Shown here piece by piece: positions 3,395 through 39,800 of a DNA stretch of 64,000 nucleotides; within the stretch, counting starts at the first letter, position 1, and every line of letters starts with the position of its first letter. Under the pieces are notes generated by a model. That model saw nothing but the letters and a program-made list of their open reading frames with translations. It had not been told where the DNA came from and made no database searches. The DNA lies in the NCBI GenBank assembly GCA_964019415.1, contig OZ025880.1, forward strand, positions 7,432,585 through 7,496,584. The letters are read 5' to 3'. This DNA comes from Ianthella basta. Its lineage: Eukaryota; Porifera; Demospongiae; Verongiida; Ianthellidae. The position numbers and the translations under genes were made by a program.

Positions 3395-6205
3395 TCACAG
3401 TGTGCTGTTGGCACAGGCTGCTGGCTGGTTGAAGCGGAACACAGCTCCACAGTCACAGCTAGAGGCTGGCGACACAGAGGAGGAGGAGAGGTTGCGAAAT
3501 CCCTCAGAGGGGCAAAGTGTGTCTGCCCATGACATCCTCTCCTCCTCACAGTACAGCTTGGCAGGCACACCTTCAGTGACCACAGCACGGTAGATGGCTG
3601 AACCTGTGCCAATGAACATTGCCAGGAACCCAAAGACCAAAACAGCACAAGCGGTAACTTGCTTCACCCTTGAGAAGACACTCTTCCCCTTGATGAGCTT
3701 GAGGTAAGCAGCTGCTGGGAAGATGAATGCAATAGGAATTGAAGATAAACAGCCCTAAATTGGGAGAGGAGGAGAGTGTGTGTGTGGAGGGGGGGGGGGG
3801 GGGATCATATCAGAACACTACTTTCCCATTCATCCCATCTTGAATCCCTTCTTGCAACCCCAGGTGACTCACTGTGAGGGCCAGGACAACTTCCAGGTTC
3901 TCAGTGGGTATTCCAATTGATGCACTCAAACCAACCAGGAGGAGGGTGAGGAAGATGTGCCTTGGGAGGGACTTCCTGAGAGGTGTGTACAGGAAGTGCT
4001 CCACCCACTGACGCACACGCCCATTCTTCAAATGCACCATCCACCTCCGGGGCACCTCTTGCAAGGCCAACTCCACCACCTAGTTAGGGAAGGACGCAGT
4101 GTTCACTCCAACACTCACCACTTCACTCCACACACACCCAATGCAGTCACCTCTCGTGTCACATGCAGCTCAATGGGGTAGGACAGCATGATGATGAAAG
4201 TGTACATGGCTCTTGCGACATTAGCTGCTGGGTCTTTCTCACAGTAGTTGTTCAGAAGGTCACCTGCGCATGTGGGGAGAGCAGGATGGATACTCAGGAC
4301 AAGACCCTGACCTGTTGGATGTGTCTCTGCTGGTCACACCCTGAGTGTTGCCTTGAAAGGTGAGGTAGCCCAGTATCCCCAGCATGCTGAGGAACACCAA
4401 GGAGGAGAACACAGAGATGTTGGTGGCGATGGCGTAGGTCTTCATTGTCTTGTTCTTCAAAGAGTTGTAGACCAGGAGGATGTTGTGGTGGCACACATAG
4501 GCTGAGTGGAGGCAAACTGGAGAGTGGAGTAGTACCTGTTTCCATGTAAGGCTTGGTGCACTACCACTCACCTGTTGCCAGGATTCCGACTGCTGAGAAC
4601 ACTTCAAAGTTAATGAACCAGGTGCTAACGAACCAGGATAGTTCGCTGCCATGACAACAAGGTGAACTAGGCTCCACAATTGTAGTGCCATTCACAACTA
4701 CAAAGTCGTAGCAGCGTCTGCAGAGGCCAAGCATGTGACCACCACACCAGTAGAGAGGAAGTAGTAGGGTGTGTTGCCATGGTTACAGAGCACTTCACTC
4801 ACACTGTACAGAACAGAACAATGATCTCGTACAAGACAATGACCTGAAGGCCTGCAATCAGGAACACTGCAATACCTGAGAACTGCATGGGGAGGGAGGG
4901 ATGGGGGGGGGGGTACTTCACAGGGAAATCCCTCGACATTCAAAAGCTGTCACCTTCTCAAGGCTGGCAATGTTCCTTAGTGAGGACACTGGGAGCATCA
5001 CCAGGAGGATGCAGAGGGTCTTGATGAAGGGAGGATTCACAAGGATGGCGGGTGGGGGGGTGTTGTAAATGGCGACTAACATGAGGCATGGAAGAGAGAC
5101 ATTTGTACAGTAACACATTAGACTGTAGGTCAGTAACACTCGATCTATTTTGTGAGCTACAGAGCACTTGACACACAGCAAGGTATGCAGGTATAGTAAG
5201 GGACTCACATATTCCACTGATTATTCCGGTGATTGTATCTCCCACTATTATGATATAAGACACCATTGCTGTACGGAGGAATGGAGAGGAGAGGGGGCCC
5301 GACGCTCAAGGATGAGTGGCCATGGAGAAAAAATGATGGAGAACCAAAGAGAAATATGGTGTCAAGCAAAGGCCAGGCAGTTGAATTGTACCACTCACCA
5401 GAGAATGCCACTACAAACTGCTCAAAGGCAGCTAGGAGATAACCGATCTTCCCAAAGGCCTTCCTCATCACCTCCTGGTATGAGGAGCAGCCAACAGAGT
5501 TGGCAGTTGACACTAAGATGATTAATGTGTACTCTGACATCACACCAATCAGCACCAACAGGACCACGCCCACACTGAACCCCGCCTCCCTAATAGCTGC
5601 AGGAACACCAATAATCCCAGCCCCGATAATGGAATTGATTGTGTTAAATGATGCTCCAACCAAACCACTCTCTTTATCGAGATCTTGCTTCTTGTGACTA
5701 GACTCATCAGATCCTGGCTCTGTGGGACCCTCGCAATTGGTGTCCTATAGGAGATTGAGAAGAGGAACAAGCAACCGCAGTCTCGACTTAGCTAGTTAAA
5801 GCATGGGTCCTTCATAATATAGTTTCAAGGTTATGATCGTATATTGCCAGCATAGATAACACAACACTGCATTCACGCCCTCAACACAACAGTCGTCATG
5901 CCATGCACTAGGAAAGAGAACATCTGAACAAGGAACATAGCACAATATATAAAACACACAAGACACGTGAGTGTCAGTCCCGAAGGACTAGGTGCCAAAT
6001 GCTGAACGAACAACAACACCTTGTCACGGCGTGCATGTCTTCCACGACTACGTATCCTTTATAATTAAATGCCCTGAATTGAACACTCCAGCTAGCTTGC
6101 TACTAGCTAGCTAATACATAGCTATAGGCAATGGCTTACATTGTTGGCGCACTGGGCATCAGCGACGTCCTTGTTTGTTGCCGCTTTGTAACTGACGTTC
6201 CCCAT
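3395..6205 (-). CDS. SLC38A11-like amino acid transporter, copy B (complete, 553 aa)
   Basis: The exons are 6140-6205, 5399-5744, 5209-5268, 4954-5075, 4803-4882, 4572-4717, 4340-4501, 4151-4263, 3873-4079 and 3395-3754. All are GT-AG and together form one frame of 554 codons including the stop. The N-terminus is hydrophilic. TM1 has SIIGAGIIGVPAAIREAGF; later landmarks are IVGDT, SLRNIASLEK, CHHN, GYLTFQGNTQGDLLNNYC and LTYPIELHVTRE, which follow the order seen in SLC38A11. The C-terminal tail is rich in Cys and Ser. It is a direct-repeat paralogue of copy A, and it is inverted and head-to-head with copy C. Predicted role is plasma-membrane or lysosomal neutral amino acid transport. No frameshift was seen. 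Confidence 0.88.
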
Positions 6206-12874: not shown

Positions 12875-19538
<6,664 letters not shown>

Positions 19539-24970: not shown

Positions 24971-24979
24971 ATCATGGAG
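24971..24979. repeat. Target-site duplication, left copy (ATCATGGAG)
   Basis: Identical to 30873-30881. The 9-bp length matches the duplication around the related MITE at 12190. The copy contains an ATG that now runs into the element and stops at once (ATG GAG TAG). Confidence 0.85.
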
Positions 24980-25071
24980 TAGTCTCGTCCCCAGCCCACT
25001 TCCGGCCGCCATTTTGCAATGGCCCGAAAAGGTGGTCTGGCGACTATGGTCGACTTTCTTGGGCCTGGAAG
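24980..25071. repeat. Left terminal inverted repeat (92 bp)
   Basis: Begins TAGTCTCGTCCCCAGCCCAC and ends GGGCCTGGAAG. The right end differs only at the T of GGGCCT (C on the other side). It contains CCGCCATTTTGCAATGG, which resembles a YY1-type core-promoter site (CCGCCATNTT). Confidence 0.92.
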
Positions 25072-25130
25072 CCAGTCTCGATTACGTAACACTGGTGGGA
25101 GCACCGAGGTGTGGAATTTGTACGGGCAAG

Positions 25131-28100
25131 ATGGCGGTGCAACGCTGTGCGGTGTGTTCCTGCAGCGTGGCAAATCCTTCTTTTCGCAGGCGAATAGAAA
25201 GTAGCCCTCAGGTTCTCGCCTTTGCCAAGTCGGTCGGGCTTCGACTTGCAGAAACTGAAAGTAGCAACCAGTACGTGTGTCGAACGTGCTTTTCCAAGCT
25301 GGAGAAAGGCAGCAAGGCGGAGGGGACACTCCGATCTACTGTTCAAGACATTCTACGTTGTGCTGGACAGCCGCATGACGTTTCTGTCTCAATCAGGAGC
25401 ATAAGCTGCGATCAAGGTACCCAAACACAAACGGATCGCGAGGAAGAGCAGCGCGACAGTAACCAAGGTGAACAACTAGCCAGCTACGCAGCTGACTAGG
25501 GCCTTTAATCAAATAGCTATAAAATAGCTAACTACGACTCGCACCTTTGTGCTTGCTGTGGTTTCTTCATATAGACAGCAAGACTCCTAGTCCTCGCAAA
25601 AAGAGAAGACTGCAGGACAGAGGTGTGTTCCTCACACCACCAGGTAGCAAGAAGAGGTGTCACAGAAAAAAGCTTTTCCAAGACAGTCCCATGGTGCAGG
25701 TTAGTAAAAAAGTTAGCAGCCCTTTCTGCCGTAAACATCTGACTGTGGTGTAATAAACAGCCTCTATGCATTAATGCATTTAGGTAGCTGTAACTGCTAA
25801 AGGCAAAGTGAGGCGATTTCGTGTTCAGAGCAAGTATAAGAGACTGGTGATGTCTACTCGCTACAACAAATCTCCCTATACTGCACGTGTTATGCTTCGC
25901 AATAGCCCTCTAAGAAGACCAGTTGTGAGAAGCATTTGCAGCATCATTCGAAGGGAGGTCCACCAACTTTGTTCAATGAAGTATGGAGCATCTGTCCTTC
26001 GCGGTACTTCATCAGCAGCCCTCACTTCATTTTCATGGAGACCAGTTGTAATAGAACTAAAAGCTCGTGCTCCTGTTCTATATGATGTTCTCAAGGCTGT
26101 GATTGCAAGACCAAAGAAATCAACAGATGCTAGTGCCATTGGCATCGCAGCAGCTGTCATGCTGAAAGCCAGAAACAGGTTCTTCTCATTTCCACAAGCT
26201 GTGACGTCAGTTCTTCTGTATGCTGGTCATTGCTCCAAGCAGGTTAGTGTGTCAAAATGTGTTTGTGAATAATACTTTGCTATTAATGTTAATTATGCTA
26301 TTTGTTTTAAATCTATCCAATAGGTATTTCATAGACTCAATCGTATTGGTCTATGTCTGAGCCACCGACAAACACTGAGGGTTGTTAGACAATTAGGAAA
26401 TGATCATGATAGGGTGGTAAAGCAATGGAAGAGTGCACAGGAGTCAACTGGCTCTACAACCGAACCAAACTTGGAGGTCACTGAGAATATCAGCAATTGG
26501 GAGGGTGAGAATGCAACAACTGAAGATGAGTCATTCTCCTCAACAGGTTAGGGGACAATTAAATGCATGATGTTGTCATTTATAGTTATATAATTTTTTG
26601 TAACATTGTGCAGAGGAAGAGAATCACACTGCCACATCGGATTCGGATTCAAGTGAATCTCGAGATCTGTTCACTTCCAGGCCCATGGTGGCTAACACAA
26701 GTCAACAGCTGCAGTCATTTTCCTACACCATTGTAGGAGACAATGTTGACAAGACTGTTTCACCACGCTGTATGACCACTGACCATCAGCGTCAGAGTCT
26801 ACATTATTTCCATATGTATTGTGCAATGGATCGCATTGATTTTCGTCACCTGACAAATGATAAGCCAATTGCAGATGTATCCAGTCTCCCACTGTCAACC
26901 TTCCTTCCAAACTTGGAGGACAGCTCTGCTCTGCGTTCCAACTATGCTGTCCTGTTGGGTCGTGAAGTGGTGCAATCGCTTCCCTTCTTCAAGGACTTTG
27001 GTGAATACGTTCCAAGCCACATTCCTCATAAGTACAGTACAGAAATGAGCAGAAAGTCCACTGTGGTAAGTTGAAAAAACACTTATACGAATATTATATG
27101 CAAAGAACATCATCTATATAGAATGATATATAATGTTAGATGCATGCATGTGTATGCTTGCACATGCAGGTGCCTTTGGGTGTTATACCTAACAATGAGC
27201 AAGTCACTGATGAGATGGTGTCAATTCTGGAGCATCTGCACCAGTACGTCCCTGTTGTGAAACATGGAGACTGCGCGGAGACGTATTCACCAATTGCCTT
27301 TGGTGGAGATCAACTCACAGCAGCCAGAGCTCTGACAGCAAAGAAAGTGCGAGTTACCAGCCATGGTAAGGCAGCTTTGCGAGGACTTGTACCCTACTGT
27401 GCAGATTGGCATGCAAAGGTTAACTTCATTCAGGTTAGTGCCATGTAGGCATAATTATGCATAATTAGTATGAATTTAAATAAACATTAGTTTCAATGTA
27501 TTGTTGGTTACATCACCTTTACAGATCATGTGGCTTCGGCTGTATAAGGGAGGATCTAGCATGGAAGGAGGGACCCTACAACAGCTGCGAAACTTAATTG
27601 GACGTCGCAACATTGGCTCGGAGACTGATGTCAAGGGACATGTCAATGAGATTGAAGACTTCCTTGAACTTGTTATCAGGTGCCACCTGATAGAAGCGAC
27701 CCTACACTTTTTTGCCATGCGCAACACAACTGATACACCACATGCCAACACCTTCCCTCCTGGCTTTGCGTCTCTTCCATTTCACAAAAGGAAAGAGCTA
27801 TTTTTTGATCGACTGCTTCGTATTATTGATAGATATGTCATTCCCAAGCAGTTCCTTCTGGAGCAGTCACAACAGCTACAGCAACCATCACCAGAAGATG
27901 TCCATAGGAATCCCCACTTCCAGCGTGTCACTCATGAGCACATGTATGGTGTAGCTCCTCCCCCCCCAGGGACAGCAACACGTCATCTGCCATCGACAAT
28001 CCAAGAAGCACTAGATCGTCCAGAGGCTCCTCAATCCATCCAATGCACATCCGTGGATGGAGTCTTTGCATATGCATCTGCCGTTTTGAATGATGGGCTC

Positions 28101-28727
28101 CTACTACTGGAGTTCAAAGATGCCATTAGAGAGGGAGATGGCCAACGAATTCTACGCTGCTGGAAAGCTTTTTTGCTTTATTTTCATTTTGCAAGGCATC
28201 ATAACTATGCCAATGAAGCTGTAAGGATGCTGTCTGCTGTCTATGCATTGGCAACACCAAGGGTTGCTGCTCAGATAACCTGGAGCCGTGTGATCAACAC
28301 AAGGGGCCTTGCTGGGCATAACATCCCAGTTGACTTACACAATGAGCACCTCAATAGAGCCTTGAAGCAAGCTGTTTCAGGCCTGGGTGCAAACATTGCC
28401 AAGCAAACCATTCTGCAGTGTGGTCGAAGCCTAGATGGTCTCCTTAAAGTCAACAAGTCATTTGACGAAGAGCATGGCATACACCCTGTTTCCTTGGAGC
28501 ACAGTTCACCATCATTGGCTAAAGATCAAAAGCTAATTATGGATCAACTTTCACGTTCCCGCGTATTTGACTATGTTCCAGGACGTGATCATCGGTCATT
28601 CCACGGAATCAAGCCCAATGCTGCACAGAAGGTGGACCTGACAAAGCTGTCAGAATGGATACGGCAGAAACAATCTGCCCTGCAAGCAGAACAGAACGTA
28701 TCTAGGCTGTTCAAGCATCACTGTTAA
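25131..28727 (+). CDS. DUF6589 protein, putative transposase (1003 aa, 7 exons)
   Basis: The exons are 25131-25416, 25575-25699, 25784-26242, 26324-26546, 26614-27065, 27170-27433 and 27525-28727, all GT-AG and in phase (1004 codons); an alternative first donor at 25467 adds 17 codons. The N-terminus has paired cysteines (CAVC, then CRTC about 60 residues on), a ZAD/THAP-like zinc-binding candidate for end recognition. A basic SPRKKRR follows. The C-terminal half carries the DUF6589 pattern: IVGDNVDK, GGDQLTAARAL, DWHAKVNF and RGLAGHNIPVDLHNEHLNRA. The Asp in IVGDNVD and the Asp in GGDQLT are plausible first two acidic residues of an RNase H-like DDE core; this is inference from position and motif shape. 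Location inside TIRs argues that it mobilises the element. No stop or frameshift is seen. Confidence 0.85.
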
Positions 28728-28752
28728 TTCCAACAAATTAACCTTAAAATAG

Positions 28753-30015
28753 TCAGTGATTAGATACAATCTTGAACATCTCAGCAGCTTGGCTATGTGA
28801 TAATCCACAAGATAGAAAACTGTCCACAGAATTGTATTTCCATTTGTTCTTTACGATATCATCAATAATAACATCAGTTATACCAGTAACTACTTCAATA
28901 CCAAATAAAGGAGGGCAACTTTTATCATCAACTAGAGAGAGTCGAAAAGCTTCCAATGAAGCTTTTAAAGCTCGTTGTGCACTTGACCCAAGCTGATGTT
29001 GGGTTACTGCTGGGATGACTGGTGGAACAAGTTCCGGATCTGCTTCTGTCAACAGTAATGCTTGTACATCAAGGCAGTCATCACATTTGCATGTGCGGGA
29101 ACACACATCACAGCATTTGTGGCAAGGATTGGGCTTGATGAAGTTGCCACCATCATACTCAGCCAGCAGCATTTCCCGCCTGCACTTGCTCTCATTCAAG
29201 CAGTATGCTTTGCTGTCATCTGAGGGAGGATGATAGCCGCTGAAATCTGACCGGGAGAAGTATAGCATCGCTGTGGAATCTTGCCCATCACGTCCACATC
29301 TTCCGCTCTCCTGCAAGTATGCATCTATCGTACTGGGAGGACCCCAGTGGATAATGCAATGAACATCAGGTACATCTATACCCATGCCAAAGGCAACCGT
29401 TGCAACAATCACCCTAAGTGAACTCAAGGGGTTGCTGAACTCTGCAAGTATCCGGCCTTTGTCATCTTCATGCGATGCACTCGTGAACATGTCACAAGTG
29501 ACATCCCCATTCACAAACAGAGCATCACTCTTCCCAAGCTCATCAGCAAGGCATTCGTGGACATGCACTGCATCATCATATGTCCGACAAAAGATAATGC
29601 ATTTTTCGGCGTTTTTACCATGCTGACAAAGACCATGAACCAGTGGCTGCAGAGCAATGCGGACATCATCAGGCTTCACCCGAACAGTATATCTAATGTT
29701 GAGCTTGTTGGGCACTTTCAACACTACACTGCAATCTAACATGCATAAGCTCTTCTGGATAACCTTGCGGGTTCGGCGAGAAGCTGTTGCAGTTAGTGCC
29801 ATTACATTGACAGTAAAGGGAATAATGGACCGAGCCTCACCAATGTTTTGATATTCTCTCCTGAATGATGGACCCCTGCAATCAGGACACAGGATGTGGA
29901 AAAGGATGTGTATGACCATTTCAAATAGGACGTACACTTACTTCATGACACATACAAACACCACACAGCACCTTAACATACTGCACACACCTGCACACAA
30001 ACCAACACATTCACA

Positions 30016-30069
<54 letters not shown>

Positions 30070-30652
30070 CAGGGCAATAGCTGCACACTCACCAAATGTC
30101 AATGCAGTGAGCCTCATCAACAACAAGGGCTACAAAGTTGTCCACATACACTTGGGATCGAAACATGTCTCTTACTGCCAGGTCTTCAAGAAGGTACTCT
30201 GGTGATATGTACACTAATTGGTACTCTCCAGCAATCACAGCTGCCTTGTCACACGAATCTTGTCCCAGGAATGTGCACTTTAGTCCCCGCTTGTGGAACT
30301 TATCTACCTGATCCTGCATTAGCGCGATCAGCGGACTCACAACCAAGACGATGCAGCCACAGTCTGTCCCTCCAATAATCTGCAGATGCCGCCGAAGGTT
30401 GTCAAAGATGACAGGAAGACTGGCGAAGCAGAGAGACTTGCCCGCCCCTGTTGGGAGAGAAACGAAGACGTCACGTCCCTTTATGAAGTCCAAAATCGCC
30501 TCTTCCTGGTCTACTGTGGGCTTCTCGTAGCCGAGCATTACGAATGCTTCCAGAATAGCATTGTTCACTGTGGCCGAAGGTAGCCTTGCGGCCAATCTTG
30601 GGATTCGCACTTCTCCCATCGAAGCTGCCGTCTCGCTGCTCGAAGCTGCCAT
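28753..30652 (-). CDS. RecQ-family DNA helicase inside the transposon (560 aa, 2 exons)
   Basis: Exons 30093-30652 and 28753-29875 join inside the Trp of DEAHCIDIWG (phase 2). All superfamily 2 RecQ motifs are present in order: I LPTGAGKS, Ia VVSPLIALMQDQV, II DEAH, III ALTATA, IV CIIFCRTYDD, V VIVATVAFGMGIDVP and VI QESGRCGRDG. The RecQ zinc-binding module follows (CRREMLLAEY, then CHKCCDVC). Beyond it there is no clear winged-helix or HRDC domain. The predicted activity is ATP-dependent 3'-5' unwinding. It is encoded opposite to, and convergent with, the DUF6589 gene inside the same TIRs, so it is cargo or a transposition accessory rather than the host RecQ. The start is the ATG of MAASSSE, 129 bp inside the right TIR. 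Confidence 0.92.
30019..30067. repeat. (CA)n microsatellite in the helicase intron
   Basis: Dinucleotide run within the only intron (29876-30092) of the transposon helicase. Confidence 0.95.
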
Positions 30653-30780
30653 CTCGCTGCTAGCATAGATCTATGCTGCTAGGTAGGTATGAACGCCAGA
30701 GGTGAATGTTATGCATAACATGCCAGTAATGAGCTGTTGTGTAATCTGATTGGCCAGCACACATTCCTGCTGGGAATGGA

Positions 30781-30872
30781 CTTCCGGGCCCAAGAAAGTC
30801 GACCATAGTCGCCAGACCACCTTTTCGGGCCATTGCAAAATGGCGGCCGGAAGTGGGCTGGGGACGAGACTA
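30781..30872. repeat. Right terminal inverted repeat (92 bp)
   Basis: Reverse complement of 24980-25071 with one mismatch, ending GGGGACGAGACTA at 30872. It ends 3 bp before the start codon of the ZSWIM gene, so it now supplies that gene's immediate 5' leader. Confidence 0.92.
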
Positions 30873-30881
30873 ATCATGGAG
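30873..30881. repeat. Target-site duplication, right copy (ATCATGGAG) with ZSWIM start codon
   Basis: Identical to 24971-24979. The ATG at 30876-30878 is the start codon of the downstream gene, so the duplication regenerated an intact start codon on this side. Confidence 0.85.
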
Positions 30882-33800
30882 TGGGCTTCACAGGCGGCAG
30901 AAGACTGGGACGCTGAGGAGCTGGAGGAGGAGCAGCGGGAGGAAGGAGGAGCCGATGCGTGGTGCTCACGCGTGCAGGACCTCGAGCTAAATGCAGATGA
31001 GGATTTTCCTTCCTTGCTGGAGTTGTGCTGCCGTGTGGCAGGACGTCAACTCTCCTTTCAGCTGGTGCAGGAAGGTCCCGCCCTCTTCGACCGGGACGTG
31101 CTGAGCCGCATCGCCTACTGGTCCTTCCCTTGTCGTTATTCCGACATTCGTCGCTACATCGAGCTGAGCAGTGGCTCGCCAAAGGCAGCACGGGAGCTGT
31201 ATCAGAGCATCTCCTCACTCAACCTCACCAGCCACATGCAGATTGGTGAGTCACGTGATTGTATTAGTGGGTCACGTGATTGGATGCACCATGCACACAG
31301 TTGCTGTTACCATTTTGGTTTTGTGGCCTGGGAAGGTGTATAAGTAATGACATTCATGAGGTGGTGAAGGTAGGTGATTTCCCTCATTGTCCCCTTTGCG
31401 AGGTTAATTTACTGTAATCAGTGCCGTGTGCAATGCACTCACTGCGTGTGCTGTGCTATGGTGAGGGGTGAGGCGTGAGTGGGGAGTGTTGACTACTTTG
31501 TCCTCCTCCAACAGGTACATGTGTTCTTGGACAGTTCTCCCCCCTCCATTCTGGCCACGCCCCTCTGACGGCCATGCTGCAGTTGGACCGAGGGTGTATC
31601 ACTGACACCTCCTGCACTTGTGGGTCTGCTTACCTCTGGTGCCCGCACACCACGGCACTTGTTGTCATGGAGATGAGCGAGAGAAGCAAGCCCTCATTGC
31701 CTGCCCATCCCATGCACTCCCTCACCCGACCCACCCACCCTGCCCTCTCGGAATCCCTCACGGAACTTTCTGCCGTCCAGCTTCGCAAGTTGCTGCAGTA
31801 CTTGGTGTCAGGGTGTGGGGACCCATCCATCCTCCTCTCTGTTCAGTGCTTAGTGGACCAGCTTAGTGACGAGACATCTGACATCAGCCAGACATCTGGA
31901 GCACCTGGTGGGTATCAAATGGAGCACTCATCGCTGAAGGTCCATCTTGTGTAGTAGTACATGTCTTTATTGTACTACCAGAGGGGATTTCCCACATTCT
32001 CCCCTGCAGACCTCACTGCGGGTGGAGTTGCTGGTGATGCTGCCGTGTGGTGTCTGAGTGTGGACACAGTGTATGCCACTGCCTCCAGGGCTCTCCAGGG
32101 CAGCGAGGAGGACTCCCAGGAGGCTACCTTCTGGTCCATGTTGAGTGGAGGTGACCCTAATGCTGGCTTGCTACTGAGGGAGCGGGTGAGGGCCTTCTCT
32201 GACGTCACTAGCAGCACAGAGTTCACTGATGTTTTTGAGAGCAAGATATTCTTCCAGTGAGCGGACCTGAGCACCACCCATGGCTCACATGTCCATAGAC
32301 ATACTCCATGTGTGAGGTGTAAGTCTTCTTCTTGCTCACACATGTCTGTGAGTGTCAGCTGAATGCTGCCATTGTCTGTTGCTGCAGGTTCTGTGACTCC
32401 ATCATGGAGTGGGCTGCAGCCTTCCTGACCAGCCCTCTTGTCTCCACCTCATCCATCCGTTCTGTGGTGGAGGGTGTGTCCAAGGGCGTGGCCACCCTGC
32501 AGCACGCACGCCAGTCCCAGCTGACTCAGCAGTTGTGTCGTCTCTTCTCAGACCACCTCTCCCTGGTGGGCGGGGCAGCAGAGGTGCTCCTTGACCAGGG
32601 CACCGCCTCCTTACAGCAGGCGGCTGCAGGGTGGGATGACCCGTCTGCCGTCTGCCGCTGGGTAGAGGGGGCACCAGACCCAGTGGCACTCTTCAGTGCA
32701 CTTCTCAGCATCACCATCTCTTGTGAGAATTCAGAGCTTAGCCACAAAATGGCTGCCAACCTAGCCCAGGTTCTGTTTCCGTCTGGCACTTCTCAGTCAT
32801 TTAGAACCAGCTGTGTCGTTAATTGCTCCTTGGCAGGGTTGTCCCCAGACATGGTGAATTATTATGGGCTCCTCCTCCTTCAGAGAATAAGTGATGTTCA
32901 TCAAGCCGTGCTCTTGGGCCTCCAGATCATTGGCAGCCATCACTCAACGCACACAGACCCAGCAGTGGAGGTAAAGGGGGGCAGTGGAGGTAAAGGGGGG
33001 CAGTGGAGGTAAAGGGGGGCAGTGGAGGTAAAGGGGGGCAGTGGAGGTAAAGGGGGGCAGTGGAGGTAAAGGGGGGCAGTGGAGGTAAAGGGGGGCAGTG
33101 GAGGTAAAGGGGTGCAGTGGAGGTAAAGGGGGTGCAGTGGAGGTAAAGGGGGGCAGTGGAGGTAAAGGGGTGCAGTGGAGGTAAAGGGGGGCAGTGGAGG
33201 TAAAGGGGGCAGTGGAGGTAAAGGGGGGCAGTGGAGGTAAAGGGGTGCAGTGGAGGTAAAGGGGGGCAGTGGAGGTAAAGGGGGGCAGTGGAGGTAAAGG
33301 GGGGCAGTGGAGGTAAAGGGGTGCAGTGGAGGTAAAGGGGGGCAGTGGAGGTAAAGGGGAGCAGTGGAGGTAAAGGGGAGCAGTGGAGGTAAAGGGGTGC
33401 AGTGGAGGACACACTGTCCTGTGTTCCCTATACAGCACACACTGTACTGTGTTCCCTATACAGCACACACTGTCCTGTGTTCCCTATACAGCACACACTG
33501 TCCTGTGTTCCCTATACAGCACACACTGTCCTGTGTTCCCTATACAGTACACACTGTCCTGTGTTCCCTATACAGCACACACTGTCCTGTGTTCCCTATA
33601 CAGTACACACTGTCCTGTGTTCCCTATACAGCACACACTGTCCTGTGTTCCCTGTACACCACACACTGTCCTGTGTTCCCTATACACCACACACTGTCCT
33701 GTGTTCCCTATACAGTACACACTGTCCTGTGTTCCCTATACAGCACACACTGTCCTGTGTTCCCTATACAGCACACACTGTCCCGTGTTCCCTATACAGT

Positions 33801-36800
33801 ACACACTGTCCTGTGTTCCCTGTACACCACACACTGTCCTGTGTTCCCTATACAGCACACACTGTCCTGTGTTCCCTATACACCACACACTGTCCTGTGT
33901 TCCCTATACAGCACACACTGTCCTGTGTTCCCTATACAGCACACACTGTCCTGTGTTCCCTATACAGCACACACTGTCCTGTGTTCCCTATACACCACAC
34001 ACTGTCCTGTGTTCCCTATACAGCACACACTGTCCCGTGTTCCCTATACAGTACACACTGTCCTGTGTTCCCTATACACCACACACTGTACTGTGTTCCC
34101 TATACAGCACACACTGTCCTGTGTTCCCTATACACCACACACTGTCCTGTGTTCCCTATACACCACACACTGTCCTGTGTTCCCTATACAGCACACACTG
34201 TCCTGTGTTCCCTATACACCACACACTGTCCTGTGTTCCCTATACACCACACACTGTCCTGTGTTCCCTATACAGCACACACTGTCCTGTGTTCCCTATA
34301 CAGTACACACTGTCCTGTGTTCCCTATACACCACACACTGTCCTGTGTTCCCTATACAGCACACACTGTACTGTGTTCCCTATACAGCACACACTGTCCT
34401 GTGTTCCCTATACAGTACACACTGTACTGTGTTCCCTATACACCACACACTGTACTGTGTTCCCTATACAGCACACACTGTCCTGTGTTCCCTATACAGC
34501 ACACACTGTCCTGTGTTCCCTATACAGCACACACTGTCCTGTGTTCCCTATACAGTACACACTGTACTGTGTTCCCTATACACCACACACTGTACTGTGT
34601 TCCCTATACAGCACACACTGTCCTGTGTTCCCTATACAGCACACACTGTCCTGTGTTCCCTATACACCACACACTGTACTGTGTTCCCTATACAGCACAC
34701 ACTGTCCTGTGTTCCCTATACAGCACACACTGTCCTGTGTTCCCTATACAGTACACACTGTACTGTGTTCCCTATACACCACACACTGTACTGTGTTCCC
34801 TATACAGCACACACTGTACTGTGTTCCCTATACACCACACACTGTCCTGTGTTCCCTATACAGCACACACTGTCCTGTGTTCCCTATACAGCACACACTG
34901 TCCTGTGTTCCCTATACAGCACACACTGTCCTGTGTTCCCCATACACCACACACTGTACTGTGTTCCCTATACAGCACACACTGTCCTGTGTTCCCTATA
35001 CAGCACACACTGTACTGTGTTCCCTATACACCACACACTGTCCTGTGTTCCCTATACAGCACACACTGTCCTGTGTTCCCTATACAGCACACACTGTACT
35101 GTGTTCCCTATACAGCACACACTGTCCTGTGTTCCCTATACAGTACACACTGTACTGTGTTCCCTATACACCACACACTGTACTGTGTTCCCTATACAGC
35201 ACACACTGTCCTGTGTTCCCTATACACCACACACTGTACTGTGTTCCCTATACAGCACACACTGTCCTGTGTTCCCTATACAGCACACACTGTCCTGTGT
35301 TCCCTATACAGTACACACTGTACTGTGTTCCCTATACACCACACACTGTACTGTGTTCCCTATACAGCACACACTGTACTGTGTTCCCTATACACCACAC
35401 ACTGTCCTGTGTTCCCTATACAGCACACACTGTCCTGTGTTCCCTATACAGCACACACTGTCCTGTGTTCCCTATACAGCACACACTGTCCTGTGTTCCC
35501 TATACACCACACACTGTACTGTGTTCCCTATACAGCACACACTGTCCTGTGTTCCCTATACAGCACACACTGTACTGTGTTCCCTATACACCACACACTG
35601 TCCTGTGTTTCCTATACAGCACACACTGTCCTGTGTTCCCTATACAGTACACACTGTCCTGTGTTCCCTATACAGCACACACTGTCCTGTGTTCCCTATA
35701 CAGTACACACTGTCCTGTGTTCCCTATACAGCACACACTGTACTGTGTTCCCTATACACCACACACTGTCCTGTGTTCCCTATACAGCACACACTGTCCC
35801 GTGTTCCCTATACAGTACACACTGTCCTGTGTTCCCTATACAGCACACACTGTACTGTGTTCCCTATACACCACACACTGTCCTGTGTTCCCTATACAGC
35901 ACACACTGTCCTGTGTTCCCTATACAGCACACACTGTCCTGTGTTCCCTATACACTACACACTGTCCTGTGTTCCCTATACAGCACACACTGTCCTGTGT
36001 TCCCTATACACCACACACTGTCCTGTGTTCCCTATACAGTACACACTGTACTGTGTTCCCTATACACCACACACTGTCCTGTGTTCCCTATACAGCACAC
36101 ACTGTACTGTGTTCCCTATACAGCACACACTGTCCTGTGTTCCCTATACAGTACACACTGTCCTGTGTTCCCTATACAGCACACACTGTCCTGTGTTCCC
36201 TATACAGCACACACTGTCCTGTGTTCCCTATACAGCACACACTGTCCTGTGTTCCCTATACAGTACACACTGTCCTGTGTTCCCTATACAGCACACACTG
36301 TCCTGTGTTCCCTATACAGCACACACTGTCCTGTGTTCCCTATACAGCACACACTGTCCTGTGTTCCCTATACAGTACACACTGTCCTGTGTTCCCTATA
36401 CAGCACACACTGTCCTGTGTTCCCTATACAGCACACACTGTCCTGTGTTCCCTATACACCACACACTGTCCTGTGTTCCCTATACAGCACACACTGTCCT
36501 GTGTTCCCTATACACCACACACTGTCCTGTGTTCCCTATACAGTACACACTGTACTGTGTTCCCTATACACCACACACTGTCCTGTGTTCCCTATACAGC
36601 ACACACTGTACTGTGTTCCCTATACAGCACACACTGTCCTGTGTTCCCTATACAGTACACACTGTCCTGTGTTCCCTATACAGCACACACTGTCCTGTGT
36701 TCCCTATACAGCACACACTGTCCTGTGTTCCCTATACACCACACACTGTCCTGTGTTCCCTATACAGTACACACTGTCCTGTGTTCCCTATACAGTACAC

Positions 36801-39800
36801 ACTGTCCTGTGTTCCCTATACACCACACACTGTCCTGTGTTCCCTATACAGTACACACTGTCCTGTGTTCCCTATACAGTACACACTGTCCTGTGTTCCC
36901 TATACAGCACACACTGTCCTGTGTTCCCTATACAGCACACACTGTCCTGTGTTCCCTATACACCACACACTGTCCTGTGTTCCCTATACACCACACACTG
37001 TCCTGTGTTCCCTATACACCACACACTGTCCTGTGTTCCCTATACACCACACACTGTCCTGTGTTCCCTATACAGTACACACTGTCCTGTGTTCCCTATA
37101 CAGCACACACTGTCCTGTGTTCCCTATACACCACACACTGTCCTGTGTTCCCTATACACCACACACTGTCCTGTGTTCCCTATACACCACACACTGTCCT
37201 GTGTTCCCTATACACCACACACTGTCCTGTGTTCCCTATACACCACACACTGTCCTGTGTTCCCTATACAGTACACACTGTCCTGTGTTCCCTATACACC
37301 ACACACTGTCCTGTGTTCCCTATACACCACACACTGTCCTGTGTTCCCTATACACCACACACTGTCCTGTGTTCCCTATACAGTACACACTGTCCTGTGT
37401 TCCCTATACACCACACACTGTCCTGTGTTCCCTATACAGCACACACTGTCCTGTGTTCCCTATACAGCACACACTGTACTGTGTTCCCTATACAGTACAC
37501 ACTGTCCTGTGTTCCCTATACAGCACACACTGTCCTGTGTTCCCTATACACCACACACTGTACTGTGTTCCCTATACAGCACACACTGTACTGTGTTCCC
37601 TATACAGTACACACTGTCCTGTGTTCCCTATACAGCACACACTGTCCTGTGTTCCCTATACACCACACACTGTCCTGTGTTCCCTATACAGCACACACTG
37701 TACTGTGTTCCCTATACAGTACACACTGTACTGTGTTCCCTATACAGCACACACTGTCCTGTGTTCCCTATACAGCACACACTGTCCTGTGTTTCCTATA
37801 CAGCACACACTGTACTGTGTTCCCTATACAGCACACACTGTACTGTGTTCCCTATACAGCACACACTGTCCTGTGTTCCCTATACAGTACACACTGTCCT
37901 GTGTTCCCTATACAGCACACACTGTACTGTGTTCCCTATACAGTACACACTGTCCTGTGTTCCCTATACAGCACACACTGTCCTGTGTTCCCTATACACC
38001 ACACACTGTACTGTGTTCCCTATACAGTACACACTGTCCTGTGTTCCCTATACAGCACACACTGTCCTGTGTTCCCTATACAGTACACACTGTCCTGTGT
38101 TCCTTATGCAGTACTCTTGCATCTGCTGTGAAATTGGAGTGCTGGAGCATGTTGCAGAAATCAGCCTGCAATCTGATTGGTCAGAGAGCATCTCACTTGT
38201 AGTATCACACCTCCAGGAGCAGAGTGGGTGTGTCCTGACACGCCTCCACCTGGCACAGTACCTGTGGACAGTGGTAGGAGACGGAGGGAGAGCAGCACTC
38301 GTGCGGATCTGCACTGACATCATTCGTGAGTGTGCGCAGCATGTATTGGGGACCACCGAATCCTTTGCAGAGTAAAGTTAGTCTCTTCTTCTCTCCCTTG
38401 TGTCTCTGCACAGAAGCAGCAATGCCGTCCAGCCTTGCTAGTCCCTCCCTACACCAGTTCCTCTTCAAGATGGCTGCTGACAGCCTGTTGTATCTGGTCC
38501 AGTCCCTGCTGACGGAGGGAGGAAGTGCTGTCCAAGATAAGGTGGTCACAGTGGTGGAGGAGCTGCTCCCAACCCCACTGCCCTTCGCACAGTCGCTGGA
38601 GCTCTGTCTACAGCAAGCTACACCGAGCAGGCCGGAGGCTGGGCCATCCAGTGGTGGTTTCCAGGGCCCTGCCCCCTCTGCACAGTCCATAGACATCTCA
38701 TGTGGGGCGTCGACTAGCGCTGGTCACGTCACCTTGCCACCGCAGCACGATCCCACCAGCTGTGACATGAAGGAGCGCTTTCTCCTGGCCGACAACCGAG
38801 ATGTTGCCGTGGTGCGTACAATTTCTGATGCTGCCCCGCCCACCCTTCCATTGATCTTACAGCTCCGGCTGCGTCTGGCGTACCTGCGAGCGGCTAACAG
38901 TCGGTGTGTGCACTGGGCAGTGGTGGAGACACACCGCCTAGAGCCACTCAATGCAGCCCAACTGGGCTACCTGCTCAAGGAGGTGGGGACAGCAGGAGTT
39001 GCCCTCTTGATGAACCAGTGGCCATCTTGTCTCTCTCCCGAGGATGTGGTGCGTGTGCTCACAGCGACCCCGGAGACCATCTCCTCCACTGACAGTAGTG
39101 TAGGTGTGGACTTCTTGCTGTCCGTCCTGTTGTTCGCGGAACACATGAGTGACGTGTCACTGGTGAAGGTGCTCGGCGTGTGTGCACACAAGGGGGCTGG
39201 ACCACTAGTGGCCGCTGTCCGTGCCATCATGTGCTGTCGGTCGATTAGCTCCAATGTTCTGTTTACTGCCTGCGCTCACCTGGAGGACGCCCACCAGCTG
39301 GGCAAGGAAGCACAGCGCTCTGCACCTAGCGTGACCAGGGCCTCTGGCTTGCTGCCCCAGTGCCCCTCCCCCGAGTTGCTGCTGCTGGCACTGGAGTTGG
39401 GTAGACAGGCTGTCGCAGCGCTTGTGGAGGAAGAGGGCCGGTCCTGCTCTGTGGATACTTGCCTCTACCCGCCCTATGAGCACCGGCTCCTGCGCTATGC
39501 CACTTTGTGCTGCACGTTTGGGATGGACTCAGTCCGCAAGTTCTTGGAGGTGCTGGTCCCCCCTGACCGGCCCTGTCCCCTCAGCCCCATGGCCCTCAGC
39601 CATGTAGCCTTGCACATAGCGGAGCACCTCTCTCAGAGGAACCTCCTCCACAAGCCCTTCTACCTCACTCTGCAGCCACTCGCTGCCGTCATGAACACGG
39701 CTATGAACCGCTACGAGGAGCTCCTCAAGATGTTCTGCCTGCGCGTGGACGCACTGGGCTATCAGAGCATGTTGGACCTTCTCTCAGACATGGAGAACGT

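Follow-up and report, generated by a model that had tools for sequence, protein, structure and literature searches.

A recently mobile, AcademH-like DNA transposon of the sponge Ianthella basta pairs a likely DUF6589 transposase with a RecQ helicase

Introduction

A RecQ helicase in Academ was listed in 2013 among the transposon-encoded proteins potentially involved in transposition (PMC3627910). AcademH elements have been reported from animals and fungi and encode a helicase (PMC10799480, PMC10045372), to which the domains DEAD and Helicase_C are assigned (PMC10799480). They generate target site duplications (TSDs) of 9 or 10 bp, whereas AcademX shows TSDs of 3 or 4 bp and a nuclease in place of the helicase, the difference in TSD length being seemingly tied to which of the two is encoded (PMC10045372). 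RecQ genes are likewise described from Kolobok, whose TSD is the 4-bp TTAA: KolobokH elements, known from fungi only, carry RecQ downstream of the transposase domain, and in Kolobok-1_CCri RecQ lies on the complementary strand (PMC9587614). Here we analyse a stretch of 64,000 nucleotides from the sponge Ianthella basta (the window; contig OZ025880.1 of assembly GCA_964019415.1, positions 7,432,585 to 7,496,584), which holds a 5893-bp transposon (24980–30872) with two genes between terminal inverted repeats (TIRs), one with a DUF6589 domain, still classed by Pfam (PF20231) as of unknown function, and one encoding a RecQ helicase. Our searches covered 209 Mb of the genome in 96 contigs. There is a strong case that the element is a complete, recently mobile transposon of the AcademH kind, in which DUF6589 would be the DDE transposase and RecQ a co-inherited helper.

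The window element is like AcademH in encoding a DEAD/Helicase_C helicase, here of the RecQ type, and in making a 9-bp TSD, inside the reported range. AcademH is said to be the subject of a 2020 article by Kojima in Mob DNA (11:15). As helicase and TSD length agree with the traits reported for AcademH, the element is most readily classed as AcademH-like, AcademH being known to us from descriptions. We give a poor chance to the reading that a DDE transposon of a non-Academ superfamily acquired RecQ independently, a reading left room by an Academ likeness that comes from descriptions and not from sequences. KolobokH and Kolobok-1_CCri are indeed also DDE transposons with RecQ, in the latter on the opposite strand as in the window, but the TTAA duplication of Kolobok differs from the 9-bp TSDs of varied sequence found here (ATCATGGAG and others), and Kolobok membership was rejected on this ground; KolobokH is, moreover, reported from fungi only, and it is for AcademH that a helicase is described together with TSDs of 9 or 10 bp. 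AcademX, whose nuclease is XPG, belongs to the same superfamily as AcademH and differs from the window element in both TSD (3–4 versus 9 bp) and nuclease gene. Membership in it was rejected because of the 9-bp TSD and because a genome search for XPG_I gave three matches, none near DUF6589 (XPG_N was not searched). Subtelomeric RecQ genes of a fungus, which belong to another context, were set aside (PMC4522978).

The preliminary description of this locus had proposed a new helicase-assisted transposon family, a claim that falls to the earlier reports of RecQ in Academ (PMC3627910) and of AcademH. Helicase-carrying Academ elements were known before, and most of the novelty is gone. The link of DUF6589 to an AcademH-type transposase may be new; no paper in the literature searched names DUF6589, although the link might still have been published elsewhere.

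Results

The element is bounded by 92-bp TIRs at 24980–25071 (+ strand) and 30781–30872 (− strand), identical at 91 of 92 positions with position 87 as the sole mismatch, and is flanked by two 9-bp copies of ATCATGGAG at 24971–24979 and 30873–30881, to which no strand is assigned. The repeats with one mismatch and the 9-bp duplication first described thus proved exact to the base. These ends are not a product of chance, because other genomic copies have the same ends and a 9-bp duplication. When the TIR was searched in the genome, as had been suggested, full-length and short copies with the same ends were found among at least 42 matches (40 of 524 candidates being scored), and its first 18 bases occur 272 times, as against zero for the same pattern reversed. 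Both genes are open in each of three further full-length copies, L031, L032 and L033. The first equals the window element outside a 200-N gap, which falls in the DUF6589 gene, and the other two show 14 substitutions each and a CA microsatellite in the RecQ intron that is longer than in the window element.

Twenty-three short copies of 700–819 bp are joined from element positions 1–345 (~87–95% identity) and 5435–5893 (86–92%), with nearly identical outer TIRs, and therefore hold only the initial part of either gene. TIR-bounded copies devoid of most of both genes, close to a case raised in the preliminary description, do exist in these 23, but by BLAST (Basic Local Alignment Search Tool) they are internally deleted forms of the window element itself; the same comparison with the element revealed no other transposase in them, no search aimed at others having been made. 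Among 29 elements with both ends seen (the 23 short copies, five further fetched copies and the window's own), an exact 9-bp duplication was present in 24 and missing from L006, L023, L028, L029 and L031. This count leaves out L036 (L016 again), L035 (one end only) and, as duplicates of L031–L035, of the window element or of a nested pair, L002–L005, L011, L018 and L024; alternative end pairings in L016, L017, L031 and L033 are uncounted. The L033 copy is nested in a short copy, inside one of its TIRs, at GGTCTGGCG (TIR positions 55–63), and since GGTCTGGCG occurs once in the uninterrupted TIR of the window element, this provides a direct empty site, the one seen, for a sister copy. The element is a complete, recently mobile DNA transposon of a multi-copy family.

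Insertions beside or within the TIRs of other copies, at about TIR positions 55–66, were observed at L033 2475–2538, L017 756–819 and G000:C1:8204290–8204373, and this region is perhaps a self-insertion hot spot. The TSDs of 24 copies show a weak symmetric target make-up, GTNNNNNAC, with G first in 14/24 and A eighth in 16/24. Pairing within single TSDs was not above that of shuffled halves (29 versus a mean of 29.7, p 0.61), the symmetry being in column make-up only.

Two diverged families have the same architecture, and their ends, where found, begin with TAGTCTCGT, a terminus in common with the window element. Exact 9-bp TSDs flank three of their four copies: both copies of one family, with TIRs of ~128 bp (CGGCAGGAG and GTGAAAGAC), and one of two copies of the other (GTCCGACCC). 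In the last exon of DUF6589, the two families share 43% and 37–38% identity with the window element. The copy at G000:C9:536642–542881 and its C5 relative represent a diverged family with 307-bp TIRs that are 93% identical and with additional pieces of TIR on the left; no exact TSD was found for the C5 relative.

The DUF6589 gene, encoding the likely DDE-type transposase, occupies 25131–28727 on the + strand and comprises seven exons (25131–25467, 25575–25699, 25784–26242, 26324–26546, 26614–27065, 27170–27433 and 27525–28727; 1020 aa), with no internal stops and with GT-AG borders in all six introns, as predicted from sequence. An alternative, shorter exon 1 (donor 25417) likewise gives an open frame. 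The Pfam domain matches exon 7 (E 7.3e-31) and exon 6 (E 2.6e-9). On the − strand, the RecQ gene occupies 28753–30652, in two exons (30652–30093 and 29875–28753; 560 aa) around an intron at 29876–30092 that contains the CA microsatellite (~30016–30070). With the last bases of the two genes at 28727 and 28753, the account of two intact spliced genes, tail to tail and 25 bp apart, holds in full, with both frames open and coordinates exact.

In an alignment of the DUF6589 protein with 23 other rows, D424 (GDNxD) was conserved in all 16 rows covering the site and E894 (EH(L/M)N motif) in all 21. D579 (GDxxT) was found in 18 of the 19 rows that cover it and is missing from P0009, a gene model without that part. 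Since 14 acidic positions are conserved at the 90% level, the choice of these three follows from order and context; on this choice, DUF6589 appears to retain a DDE-like D-D-E set. Because the element has no long gene other than RecQ and DUF6589, and the latter carries this triad, DUF6589 is most likely the transposase, as the preliminary description had proposed. It would be very surprising if DUF6589 were an accessory in a non-autonomous element whose transposase lies elsewhere, a reading that its lack of both an assigned function and a named transposase relative could invite; its standing as sole long gene and its D-D-E set argue to the contrary, as does the fact that in the two diverged families, too, it is enclosed by ends of this type. 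All 15 DUF6589 relatives found came from sponges: Ephydatia or Amphimedon by name, or Ephydatia as judged by an Em id. Viral contigs yielded 90 stretches that fitted a pattern, none of which was confirmed, and a search of phage records found no relatives.

The RecQ protein matches DEAD (E 1.9e-19) and Helicase_C (E 4.6e-17) in Pfam, and RecQ_Zn_bind at E 0.0077, below its cut-off. Visible are PTGAGKS, DEAHC, ALTATA, IIFCRT, FGMGID and QESGRCGRDG, which we take to be the helicase motifs I to VI, together with a Cys-rich stretch, in line with the motifs and zinc module noted beforehand. By sequence, the solved structures best matched by residues ~40–460 bear the names ATP-dependent DNA helicase, RecQ, helicase Q1, Bloom and Werner proteins; with the second exon (the C-terminal part), Pfam reported no RQC or HRDC domain. 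RecQ proteins are 3'-5' helicases.

Genome searches gave at least 53 matches to the DUF6589 last exon, at least 58 to the Pfam domain and at least 69 to the second RecQ exon, which were clustered into 44 DUF6589 loci and 58 RecQ loci. RecQ was found within 8 kb at 33 of the 44 DUF6589 loci, compared with 0.2 expected when RecQ is placed at random, in a count that includes near-identical copies, one RecQ counted for two loci and two pairings 6.5–7.5 kb apart that may be wrong, against a random placement that ignores repeat clustering. Twenty-six of the 33 pairs are tail to tail, three have RecQ downstream and three upstream on the same strand, and one is arranged otherwise. As to the check proposed earlier, whether both genes always occur together in one orientation, the pairing holds at these 33 loci but the orientation varies (7/33 not tail to tail). 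L053–L055 and L041–L042 represent families with RecQ on the strand of DUF6589, downstream or upstream of it, and L053 and L057, although no more than 33% and 36% apart in the two proteins, differ in relative orientation.

Pairwise divergences of DUF6589 and RecQ correlate (r 0.74 over 44 pairs of 10 families, Mantel p 0.0002), and still do so when L053, which belongs to the closest pair, is excluded (r 0.50 over 36 pairs, p 0.003); a looser run with 11 families, including the near-duplicate L044, gave r 0.88. A branch with 100/100 support separates the 10 element RecQs from nine other chosen RecQs, in a tree whose bootstrap had not settled and which has long branches on two rows. In two family pairs both genes show nonsynonymous divergence (dN) of 0.25–0.58 with saturated synonymous divergence (dS), which suggests that both have been kept by selection. 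RecQ is most likely a stable, co-inherited partner of DUF6589, as the pairing and the correlated divergence indicate, and would act in an accessory role such as that ascribed to it earlier.

That RecQ is instead passenger cargo, outside the transposition machinery, we consider unlikely. Mobility with these ends is seen in short elements that have lost most of both genes, and the other gene order in 7 of 33 pairs implies that the position of RecQ is not fixed; deleted copies could, however, borrow both proteins in trans, which makes them uninformative on this point. The pairing, on the other hand, persists over families only ~30–45% identical in DUF6589, with correlated protein divergence, and the helicase motifs are retained where covered.

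Discussion

Several results weigh against a DUF6589 transposase with a co-inherited RecQ. Eleven of the 44 DUF6589 loci are without RecQ within 8 kb; none of them gives a single match of more than 300 residues, stop codons occur in six, and a RecQ remnant persists in L060 and L065. Conversely, no DUF6589 lies within 8 kb of 26 of the 58 RecQ clusters; some of these may be host RecQ genes, while the unpaired cluster at C9:3070494 is a fragment with 69% identity to the RecQ of the element. Within families, DUF6589 dN/dS is 0.58–1.05 in four copy pairs, as expected for copies no longer under selection. As for the protein itself, the AlphaFold2 model built with 23 rows has a mean predicted local distance difference test (pLDDT) score of 45, too low for a usable fold, the Pfam matches of 23 relatives include no transposase family, and a PDB sequence search returned no relative, the best match being a ribosomal protein at E 1.6. 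Nor did the XPG_I search yield an AcademX-like relative that would link DUF6589 with Academ.

With DUF6589 as transposase and RecQ as helper, we propose that the DUF6589 protein would bind the 92-bp TIRs, cleave at the ends and transfer these to the target at positions 9 bp apart on the two strands, a stagger whose fill-in would leave the 9-bp duplication, probably by a cut-and-paste rather than a replicative route. RecQ might assist while strands are transferred or afterwards, by unwinding or freeing the joined ends for gap filling, or alternatively in the handling of the donor break; such a role is suggested by its constant pairing with DUF6589. A more far-reaching and rather improbable version would make DUF6589 a DDE lineage separate from the named Academ transposases, and the two proteins an obligate machine that predates the family split and whose gene order was later reshuffled; were it true, RecQ would be a required strand-transfer co-factor and not cargo. 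The main value of the locus lies in a testable likely function for DUF6589. In addition, near-identical open copies and short derivatives within one genome offer material to ask why a DDE transposon retains its own RecQ.

Some minor observations concern the ends and the surroundings of the element. The TIRs contain GCCGCCAT/ATGGCGGC at 25005–25012 and 30840–30847, and the start codon of DUF6589 sits inside CAAGATGGCGGTG (25127–25139). Since these sequences resemble Yin Yang 1 (YY1)/translation initiator of short 5' UTR (TISU) elements, the TIRs may serve as promoters. The insertion lies at the possible start codon of a host gene, with an ATG within the TSD and a frame at 30873–31343 that continues MEWASQAAEDW...; a Pfam search of this putative host frame gave no match, and its sole PDB match up to E 1 was ZSWIM8 (E 0.074). 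Long tandem arrays are abundant in the window, among them a 28-bp unit in 168 copies at 33409–38111 and a 46-bp unit at 15910–17774.

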